Shown one piece after another: positions 43,264-46,038 of a DNA stretch of 46,038 nucleotides. The stretch covers positions 1-46,038 of the forward strand of contig CACOYI010000012.1 in assembly GCA_902631405.1 (NCBI GenBank), in the 5' to 3' direction. The notes under the pieces are model-generated. The model did not search any database and was not told the origin of the DNA. It saw only the letters and a program-made list of their open reading frames with translations. The number at the start of each line of letters is the position of its first letter. Within the stretch, counting starts at the first letter, position 1. This DNA comes from K189A clade bacterium (GTDB lineage Bacteria > Pseudomonadota > Gammaproteobacteria > Pseudomonadales > Azotimanducaceae). A program made the position numbers and the translations under genes.

Positions 43264-44220
43264 ATGGCAATTCCTTCCTTAACGACCGAAGGCAATTCAG
43301 CTGGCAAACTAAGGCGTGGCCTTGGAAGCTCGAGGAAAAAGCTTACCTCTTTGTTCGCTGATCTTATCTTGGGACCAAAAAAGATAGAGAAAGATTTTTT
43401 CAAGGATCTGGAGAGTGCGCTTCTGTCAGTTGATATAGGTCCTAGTAGTGTCAACTATATGTTCGAAAGTTTAGTGGACAAACTCCCTCGTTCCAGTTTG
43501 TCGGATCCAAAAATATTATTACCTGAATTAAAGCGCATCATGGTGGAAAAGCTCTCCTCCTATCACTCAGAAATGGAAATAGGCTCTAGCGCGCCGCATA
43601 TAGTCTTTTTCGTCGGTGTAAACGGCGCTGGTAAAACAACAACAATAGGAAAATTAGCTGAGAGATACTCGGCAAAAGGAAAGTCAATTCTGTTAGCGGC
43701 AGGCGACACCTTTAGAGCAGCGGCCGTTGATCAGTTGAGCCAATGGGCGGATAGATCTGGGGCTCAGATTATCTCCTCGGCAGGATCCTCTGATAGTGCC
43801 TCTGTCATCTACGATGCGATACAAAAGGCGCAATCTTCGGAGATTGATCTGCTTCTTGTCGATACAGCTGGGCGTCTGCAAGCTAACTCTCAACTCATGG
43901 ACGAATTGAAAAAAGTAAAAAAGGTTACTGGCAAGCTGTCGGAGGGGGCTCCTCACGATATCGTATTGGTGATTGATGGTTCTGCAGGACAGAATGCGAT
44001 TTCTCAGGTTGCTGAATTCGACAGGGCCTTAGGTTTGACCGGGCTGGTAGTAACCAAACTTGACGGCGGTGCGCGCGGCGGAGTGATCTTTTCGATAGAA
44101 AGTGAACTGGATGTTGAATTACCAATTTTCTTTATTGGGGTCGGCGAATCGAAAGAGGATTTGTTGGATTTCAATCCCCTTGAGTACGTTGAAGCTCTTT
44201 TGCCTTGGGACGATTTTTAG
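43264..44220 (+). CDS. ftsY: Signal recognition particle receptor FtsY
   Basis: GTPase receptor that docks SRP-ribosome complexes at the membrane. The 318 residues hold the NG domain: P-loop GVNGAGKTTTIGKLAE (about 118), LAAGDTFRAAAVDQLSQWAD, LVDTAGRLQ, TKLDGGARGG and IFFIGVGESKEDL. The acidic A domain of E. coli FtsY (497 residues) is missing; only a short basic N-terminus remains. Its stop abuts the ftsE ATG. First gene of ftsY-ftsE-ftsX. Confidence 0.97.
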   Translation: MAIPSLTTEGNSAGKLRRGLGSSRKKLTSLFADLILGPKKIEKDFFKDLESALLSVDIGPSSVNYMFESLVDKLPRSSLSDPKILLPELKRIMVEKLSSYHSEMEIGSSAPHIVFFVGVNGAGKTTTIGKLAERYSAKGKSILLAAGDTFRAAAVDQLSQWADRSGAQIISSAGSSDSASVIYDAIQKAQSSEIDLLLVDTAGRLQANSQLMDELKKVKKVTGKLSEGAPHDIVLVIDGSAGQNAISQVAEFDRALGLTGLVVTKLDGGARGGVIFSIESELDVELPIFFIGVGESKEDLLDFNPLEYVEALLPWDDF

Positions 44221-44898
44221 ATGTCGCAGACCCCTTTGATATCTCTGGTCAGAGTCTCAAAGAAGTTTGGCAGTGGACAGGAAGCGCTATCGGAGATTAG
44301 TGCGGAATTTCATGAAGGTACCGTTACCTACGTTACTGGTCACTCTGGTGCGGGCAAAACTACTTTGTTAAGACTAATTTTTGGCGCGGACAAGGCGTCA
44401 CGTGGAAAAGTGTTGGCGGCTGGGCGAGATATAGGAAAGCTCACCATCGCAGAGCTACCTTGGTATCGGAGGAACGTGGGCGTCGTTTTTCAGAATCCGA
44501 ACTTAATCTCGCGACGTTCTATTTTTGAGAATGTGGCCTTACCTCTGCTGATAGACGGGGAGAAACTAAGTCAGGTTGAGAAAAGAGTAAGGGGAGCTTT
44601 ATCGCGTGTACATTTGGCTGGAAGAGAGAATCTTTTCCCCTACCAACTCTCCATTGGAGAACAGCAACGGGTCGGATTGGCGCGGTCGATAGTGAGGCGT
44701 CCAATTATTCTGATCGCAGATGAACCGACGGGTAATTTAGACCCTGAACTGTCAAGGACGATTTTTGGTTTGCTGAGCGAATACTCGGCTACGGGTGCGG
44801 CTGTGATTGTTGCTAGCCACGACATTAATTTGGTACGTGCATACAAAGGGCGGGAATTCAGCTTAAATCAAGGGAGAGTGATAACAAATGATGAATAG
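44221..44898 (+). CDS. ftsE: Cell-division ABC ATPase FtsE
   Basis: ATPase of the FtsEX complex, which activates peptidoglycan hydrolases at the septum. The 225 residues have Walker A TGHSGAGKTTLLRLIFGA, Q-loop VGVVFQNPNLISRRS, signature LSIGEQQRVGLARSIVRRP, Walker B LIADEPTGNLDPELS and switch His in IVASHDINLV. The signature differs from the usual LSGGEQQRV by Ile at the third position. Follows ftsY without a gap. Confidence 0.96.
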   Translation: MSQTPLISLVRVSKKFGSGQEALSEISAEFHEGTVTYVTGHSGAGKTTLLRLIFGADKASRGKVLAAGRDIGKLTIAELPWYRRNVGVVFQNPNLISRRSIFENVALPLLIDGEKLSQVEKRVRGALSRVHLAGRENLFPYQLSIGEQQRVGLARSIVRRPIILIADEPTGNLDPELSRTIFGLLSEYSATGAAVIVASHDINLVRAYKGREFSLNQGRVITNDE

Positions 44899-44924: not shown

Positions 44925-45908
44925 TTGAAAAAGGATTTTGAAAGAGATCTATTCGCCGCCCCTAAATTGGGTCGGCGCCTAGTTAATTGGCTTAGAGATC
45001 ATATCCGTGTTGCCCATGAGGTATCAAAGAATGTGAGTTTAGAGCTTTTCGGCAGTTTTTTAACTTGGTTTATCATGGGGCTTTCGCTTTCTTTCCCGGC
45101 GGGCTTATATCTCGCTCATTTAAATGCTGAGAAGGTTGAAGGATTGGTCGGCCTGAAGGGTGGGGTAGCAATTTATTTTCAAACGGGAACAACCGAATCC
45201 GAAATAGCTATTATTCAAGATTGGATAGCGCAAAATCCCGAATTGGAATTGAAAGAAATAAGGTCAAGTGAAAAGGCCTTTGTGGACCTTATGTCAATAA
45301 TCTCCGACCAGACAGAGGAGCCTAGCATTTTAGAGGGTATCGACCATACGGTCTTGCCAGCAAGTATGCTGGTTGAATTGCCGTCCGGTTACGACGAGCG
45401 CCGCCTAGCCGCGTTGAAAGCTGAAATAGAAGAGCTTCCCAGGGTTGATTTCGTGGCCATGCAATATGAATGGTTGGAACGTTTAGCCGCCTTTCAGTCG
45501 CTAATTGAAAATCTTTGGATTTTGAGTGCACTGTTATTTGGGCTCGCTTCAGTTTTGGTAACATCGATATCTGTTAGTTTTGCGATTCGGAGCCAGCTAG
45601 AGGAACTAAAGGTTTTTCAATTCTTAGGAGCCTCCAAAAGACAAGGAAGGCGTCCATTCATTTACCTAGGTGCTATTTTCGGAATCGGAGGCGGGCTTGT
45701 AGCGCTTTTCATTTTGGCCGTGGTTTTGAGCGTTATTGAGCCCAGTCTCTCCTCCCTGTATTCGTCTTACGGCCGAGAAGCATTTATCGTAGGGTTCGAT
45801 TTGTATTTCAGCTTGATTCTCATTTTATCTTGTATGGTTTTGGGAATTATCGGTGCTAGATTGGCGTCCGGCCGAGAGCTTGATAATTTGGATGATATGA
45901 TAGCCTAA
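44925..45908 (+). CDS. ftsX: Cell-division membrane protein FtsX
   Basis: Membrane partner of FtsE that transmits ATP hydrolysis to periplasmic amidase activators. The 327 residues have four membrane segments (about 40-65, 195-220, 245-270, 290-312), a large periplasmic domain after the first, and the motif SLELFGSFLTWFIMGLSLSF, ending ARLASGRELDNLDDMIA. TTG at 44925 follows GAGG by eight nt. The CIRCE element and rpoH follow. Confidence 0.94.
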   Translation: MKKDFERDLFAAPKLGRRLVNWLRDHIRVAHEVSKNVSLELFGSFLTWFIMGLSLSFPAGLYLAHLNAEKVEGLVGLKGGVAIYFQTGTTESEIAIIQDWIAQNPELELKEIRSSEKAFVDLMSIISDQTEEPSILEGIDHTVLPASMLVELPSGYDERRLAALKAEIEELPRVDFVAMQYEWLERLAAFQSLIENLWILSALLFGLASVLVTSISVSFAIRSQLEELKVFQFLGASKRQGRRPFIYLGAIFGIGGGLVALFILAVVLSVIEPSLSSLYSSYGREAFIVGFDLYFSLILILSCMVLGIIGARLASGRELDNLDDMIA

Positions 45909-45915
45909 ACTTTCA

Positions 45916-45942
45916 TTAGCACTCTCTTTATAAGAGTGCTAA
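45916..45942 (+). promoter_or_regulatory. CIRCE element (HrcA operator) upstream of rpoH
   Basis: TTAGCACTC (45916-45924), nine bases, then GAGTGCTAA (45934-45942): a perfect match to the CIRCE consensus TTAGCACTC-N9-GAGTGCTAA bound by the HrcA heat-shock repressor. It lies 31-57 bp before the rpoH ATG. -10-like sequences lie in the spacer (TATAAG, 45929-45934) and just after (TATAAA, 45943-45948), so HrcA could block polymerase. The hairpin has no U-tract, so it is not a typical ftsX terminator. hrcA is not in the window. Confidence 0.9.
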
Positions 45943-45972
45943 TATAAAAGAAAGTGTTACTGGAAGTAGCAG

Positions 45973-46038
45973 ATGAATTCACAAGTAATGATGTTGCCTT
46001 CACTCTCTCCGGGATTGGATATAGACTCCTATTTACGG
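45973..46038 (+). CDS. rpoH: RNA polymerase heat-shock sigma factor, first 22 codons (runs off right edge)
   Basis: The frame reads MNSQVMMLPSLSPGLDIDSYLR, resembling the N-terminus of sigma32 (a Leu/Pro-rich start, then G-x-DSY(I/L)R at the beginning of region 1.2). The ftsY-ftsE-ftsX-rpoH order is conserved in gammaproteobacteria and strongly supports the call. GGAAG precedes the ATG. The gene has a CIRCE element upstream. Confidence 0.88.
   Translation, partial: MNSQVMMLPSLSPGLDIDSYLR

Follow-up and report, generated by a model that had tools for sequence, protein, structure and literature searches.

In the analysed genome a CIRCE element, the operator of the HrcA repressor, stands directly in front of rpoH, and by sequence comparison most related bacteria with an hrcA gene show the same layout. 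The element before rpoH is real and probably functional. We consider it very likely that HrcA uses it as a functional operator at the rpoH promoter, such that loss of HrcA activity would raise sigma32. In the class-wide comparison CIRCE often shares its DNA with a sigmaE-type promoter, which opens the further prospect of a gate between two stress responses.

A perfect CIRCE element between ftsX and rpoH

The window, i.e., the whole stretch of 46,038 nucleotides that was analysed, is one entire contig of a 73%-complete, 1.6-Mb bin. The perfect CIRCE proposed from the sequence-only reading was borne out: positions 45916-45942 read TTAGCACTC TCTTTATAA GAGTGCTAA, with both 9-base arms and the 9-base spacing exact (0 mismatches). 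At up to 3 mismatches this is the sole match in the window, where 0.02 are expected from shuffled sequence, and also the sole match in all 1,598,538 bases of the 73%-complete bin. The element sits inside the 64-base gap between ftsX and rpoH, and 30 bases (45943-45972) separate it from the ATG at 45973. The features of the locus are collected in Table 1.

Table 1. Features around the CIRCE element, in window coordinates
Feature	Position	Strand	Basis
ftsY	43264..44220	+	TIGR00064, over cut-off
ftsE	44221..44898	+	TIGR02673 best match, below curated cut-off
ftsX, directly upstream of CIRCE/rpoH	44925..45908	+	TIGR00439, E 3.5e-52, below curated cut-off
CIRCE operator (HrcA site), TTAGCACTC-N9-GAGTGCTAA, exact	45916..45942	.	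exact match; conserved in relatives
Possible sigma70 -35 (TTAGCA), within left CIRCE arm	45916..45921	+	weak, prediction only
Possible sigma70 -10 (TAATAT), right-arm end and next three bases	45940..45945	+	weak, prediction only
Second inverted repeat GTGTTAC-N5-GTAGCAG, between CIRCE and ATG	45954..45972	.	holds GGAAG ribosome-site-like core; genus-wide
rpoH, first 22 codons only	45973..46038	+	residue match; rpoH in same position in relatives

Because the contig stops at 46038, only 22 codons of rpoH are readable, and this fragment of 22 residues gave no match to a family model. The name rpoH was assigned because of the ftsY-ftsE-ftsX order, the identity of the 22 residues to RpoH (50-55% in four near relatives, 14-32% in six distant ones) and the same-genus loci in which the same CIRCE is followed by rpoH. 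All 10 longer members of alignment A1 match TIGR02392 (RpoH). A search of the bin for the remainder of rpoH did not recover it; the one match, below the RpoH cut-off, falls in a frame of 638 residues, probably RpoD.

The repressor gene is present in the same bin, as the proposed regulation demands: hrcA encodes 358 residues with winged-helix and C-terminal Pfam domains and is followed by grpE and then dnaK, both read by eye. Neither groEL nor RpoE was found in the 73%-complete bin, an incompleteness that makes both absences say little.

Two candidate controls of hrcA itself were rejected. CIRCE is missing upstream of the bin's own hrcA (best match, 7 mismatches) and, with this one included, from all 23 measured upstream regions among 30 hrcA loci of the genus and its order neighbours; of the other seven loci, L303 and L328, measured separately, also lack it. 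A sigma32 promoter at hrcA was discarded since 22 of the 23 regions scored no better than shuffles, and the L322 region, at 11/13, equalled its own best shuffle. Where measured, the hrcA loci (L002 and those of relatives, L303-L331) are thus without an upstream CIRCE, unlike in Geobacter.

Conservation of the element in the genus and order

CIRCE occurs at up to 2 mismatches somewhere in all 36 same-genus genomes. It precedes rpoH at this stringency in 32 of them, each region coming from a different genome, and at 3 mismatches in two more (G026 and G031), giving 34 of 36; no rpoH region was obtained from the remaining two, G019 and G021. The gene order is retained as well: of the 31 rpoH regions that extend at least 300 bases upstream, 30 show ftsX just before, in the same orientation. 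Across 33 genus rpoH regions, window included, mean pairwise identity was 94.7% in the arms and 31.3% in the spacer, with 30.8% in the 50 bases upstream and 40.5% in the 30 bases downstream.

The genus set comprised 70 CIRCE regions, 32 before rpoH, 37 before groES and one unassigned (L284). Of the groES regions, 34 belong to 33 of the 36 genus genomes, each with CIRCE before groES, and three to other families of the order. The hrcA gene was found in 32 of the 36; the four genomes in which it was not found (G028, G032, G033 and G035, 58-91% complete) all have CIRCE before rpoH. In other families of the order, CIRCE before rpoH was detected in G057, G040 and G039, where hrcA was found, and in G038 (L368; 75% complete), where it was not.

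Co-occurrence with hrcA across Gammaproteobacteria

Of 370 gammaproteobacterial genomes, 277 yielded hrcA and 369 an RpoH-model match (351 over the cut-off). From these 369, the best 110 rpoH places by score were taken (30 loci and the next 80 in list order, 109 genomes), which is not a random draw. Genomes missing from the 277 positive ones, compared by eye, were counted as hrcA-negative, and CIRCE was scored at up to 3 mismatches within 450 bases upstream of rpoH. The element was present at 85 of the 94 places in hrcA-positive genomes versus 3 of the 16 in hrcA-negative ones and, counted by family, in 51 of 53 versus 2 of 11 (Fisher 1e-7). The reversed motif, used as a control, matched none of the 110 places at up to 3 mismatches.

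Not every place fits the simple reading. Nine of the 94 hrcA-positive places lack CIRCE, one of them a second rpoH in G383, whose other copy has the element. Conversely, G138 (L212), G122 (L214) and G237 (L202) have CIRCE before rpoH with no hrcA found; for these, as for G038, G028, G032, G033 and G035, hrcA may lie in an assembly gap or have been lost recently, or the site may be read by a different protein. A separate observation concerns family f157, in which the hrcA-positive G366, G289 and G191 (L206, L210, L234) are all without CIRCE before rpoH; this lineage seems to have dropped the link.

The persistence of CIRCE at 3 of the 16 hrcA-negative places and in the four genus genomes without a found hrcA is what would be expected if the element were a relic, or a chance palindrome, that now does nothing at rpoH. 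We regard this as very unlikely: the element is exact in the window, its arms are far more conserved than the spacer and the upstream flank, its presence follows that of hrcA across families, and the reversed-motif control was empty. The near-zero shuffle expectation, that control and the conservation of arms over flanks are the grounds for rejecting a chance palindrome.

A scan of named genomes widened the taxonomic range. It demanded CIRCE together with a sigma-factor motif, so that their joint presence there is by construction and the scan, being selective, is silent on frequency. It returned at least 118 contigs, in at least 110 of which CIRCE is followed by an RpoH-like frame of 279-313 residues (one, L146, touching the locus end); the rest among the matches listed are seven frames cut by the locus end and one short frame (L107). 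Halieaceae, Woeseiaceae, Methylococcales, Pseudoalteromonas, Alcanivorax, Rhodanobacter, Dyella, Thioalkalivibrio and Legionellales are represented among the matches listed, as are some records titled beta- or deltaproteobacterial. FtsX was recognised upstream in at least 66 of the 96 listed loci with enough upstream DNA, a lower bound obtained with one distant query. One metagenome bin titled Klebsiella pneumoniae (L101) also carries CIRCE before rpoH; its title is probably wrong, because its RpoH start is close to those of L069 and L133, which are titled only Proteobacteria or Gammaproteobacteria.

The arrangement singled out by the sequence-only reading is real, and its status as a peculiarity of this genome is rejected, CIRCE preceding rpoH in the genus, the class (85 of 94 places) and the named genomes, with a Geobacter case already in print.

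Overlap of CIRCE with a predicted rpoH promoter

The consensus of the 88 CIRCE-bearing class regions reveals GGAACTT at a fixed place just upstream of CIRCE and AAT after it. A sigmaE-type promoter, defined as GGAACTT, 15-17 bases and TCTRA with at least 10 of 12 positions matched, was detected in 66 of these 88 regions versus 1.9% with shuffled flanks; it was present in none of the 37 groES CIRCE regions, a control drawn from the genus and three order neighbours and not from the class. Its -35 begins at -16 with a spacing of 16 in 52 regions and at -17 with a spacing of 17 in nine, and in both registers the -10 falls on CIRCE positions 7-11 (counted from 0), that is, on the last bases of the left arm and on the spacer. 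This common register is shared by 61 of the 88 regions and 37 of the 53 families. The -35 is the stronger half, since strict TCTRA occurs in only 18 of the 88 regions (shuffled spacers would give 4.6%), and TCTCA, in 20 regions, is the form seen most often. Among the matches listed for the named set, at least 62 of 116 usable regions have a sigmaE-type promoter.

Base preferences within the element give a second sign of promoter overlap. The third base of the left arm is G in 31 of the 88 class regions, yielding TTGGCA, which is nearer to TTGACA, versus 1 of 88 for the mirror base. TAAAAT or TAATAT runs across the right end of CIRCE in 44 of the 88 class rpoH regions versus none of the 37 groES regions.

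Closer to the window, 9 of 32 usable genus regions reach 10/12 for sigmaE (0.9% with shuffled flanks), and the order neighbours score 12/12 (G039), 10/12 (G057) and 9/12 (G040 and G038) in the register. In the window's own rpoH region the sigmaE -35 is missing from the common register, and the best match, TAAACTT-N16-TATAA, lies six bases out of register with 9/12, one short of the threshold. The possible sigma70 pair TTAGCA-N18-TAATAT scores 8/12, as do four other pairs in the region, and a fixed-threshold scan of 45700-46038 found no consensus sigma70 site and no terminator. What appears over CIRCE in the window is thus only a weak sigma70-like promoter.

The claim that HrcA sets rpoH transcription is accordingly kept in part. 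The proposed repression, and with it the coupling of the two heat-shock circuits, is well supported by comparison, because hrcA is present and the element is conserved with ftsX upstream; HrcA need not be the sole input, because in relatives the same stretch also holds a sigmaE-type promoter. We see an even chance that CIRCE laid over a sigmaE promoter of rpoH, with the left arm and spacer doubling as the -10, is an old gammaproteobacterial switch in which sigmaE, responding to envelope stress, would fire only once HrcA is released by cytoplasmic folding stress, and of which E. coli P3 would be a remnant after loss of hrcA and CIRCE.

The promoter registers also bear on whether the palindrome might work by folding into a hairpin in the rpoH mRNA leader and not as a DNA operator. 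Any perfect inverted repeat is able to fold, and the E. coli rpoH mRNA is a thermosensor, which counts for such a role. We nevertheless hold it to be very improbable, given that the presence of CIRCE follows hrcA and that the same arms stand before groES; moreover, the starts predicted from the registers would lie within the right arm or beyond it, leaving no more than half of the palindrome in the transcript.

A second inverted repeat in the rpoH leader

The genus shares a further inverted repeat between CIRCE and the start codon. GTGTTAC-N5-GTANCAC is found in 31 of 33 genus rpoH leaders, and the repeat begins 12-14 bases past CIRCE in 29 of 33 regions. In members with a short leader it holds a ribosome-site-like GGAGG or GGAAG; in nine members with a long leader it keeps its place close to CIRCE, and the start codon follows some 60-190 bases further on.

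A few large-genome relatives carry exact copies elsewhere: before an hfq-like frame (L348), before RND-adaptor-like frames (L347 and L352), all named by eye, and with no frame found beside (L344). These copies at other genes hint that the repeat may be the operator of another, unnamed regulator. An RNA-hairpin reading was weak, the 61-base leader folding no better than shuffles (z = +0.5).

Such a repeat could in principle provide the main control of rpoH in the genus, as another regulator's operator or a leader hairpin, with CIRCE secondary. Its occurrence in 31 of 33 leaders, the exact copies before hfq-like and RND-adaptor-like frames and the folding of its 27 bases of RNA taken alone (z = -2.9) speak for this; we still judge it unlikely to a high degree. 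The 61-base leader as a whole shows no such folding, U-A never occurs as the pair at the fourth position, the window copy has one end base changed, the repeat has no known regulator, and the motif read backwards, as a control, gives similar counts in many of the genomes.

Proposed model and comparison with known systems

HrcA acting through CIRCE remains the preferred account. In an unstressed cell, HrcA on CIRCE would keep RNA polymerase out, since the promoter itself lies under the element. HrcA activity would be lost through heat or GroEL titration, the latter known from other bacteria (PMC6032397), and rpoH and groESL would then be derepressed together, with sigma32 from derepressed rpoH switching on the wider heat-shock set. 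In the relatives, activation would come from sigmaE, and HrcA would gate the induction of rpoH by envelope stress.

CIRCE before rpoH is not new in kind, since it was printed in 2004 for Geobacter sulfurreducens, where Table 8 of Rodionov et al. gives an exact CIRCE directly before rpoH at position -51 (PMC545781). The likeness includes groESL, which CIRCE also precedes both there and in the present genus; the difference lies in hrcA-grpE-dnaK-dnaJ, preceded by CIRCE in G. sulfurreducens (PMC545781) and found without it here in all the measured hrcA regions. For beta-, gamma- and epsilonproteobacteria, Rodionov et al. refer to Permina and Gelfand 2003 (PMC545781), which, going by its title, is the likeliest place for an earlier list of gammaproteobacterial CIRCE-rpoH sites.

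At the groESL and dnaK operons of Helicobacter pylori, the HrcA operator, in the account consulted, similarly lies close to or over the -35/-10, and HrcA activity is raised by GroE (PMC6032397). H. pylori differs in using HspR as well (PMC6032397), and in the present case the proposed target of HrcA is the gene of the heat-shock sigma factor. Our search of the open-access literature returned no statement of a fixed CIRCE-sigmaE overlap at rpoH. If CIRCE works there as proposed, this fixed overlap with a sigmaE-type promoter would form a gate, open to testing, between the envelope and cytoplasmic stress responses.

The HrcA and sigma32 circuits are kept apart in the textbook picture because the model E. 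coli has only sigma32, and the control genomes in which HrcA was matched do not include this species. Its rpoH upstream region contains TGAACTT-N16-TCTGA, 11/12 for a sigmaE promoter and like the class-wide element, which we take to be rpoH P3. The rpoHP3 promoter serves as a sigmaE reporter (PMC2956729). The likeness is thus a sigmaE promoter upstream of rpoH, and the difference is CIRCE, which is missing there (best match, 8 mismatches). If CIRCE at rpoH works as proposed, the usual state in hrcA-bearing Gammaproteobacteria would be hierarchical, the sigma factor being gated by a repressor that senses chaperones, with E. coli as the derived case.
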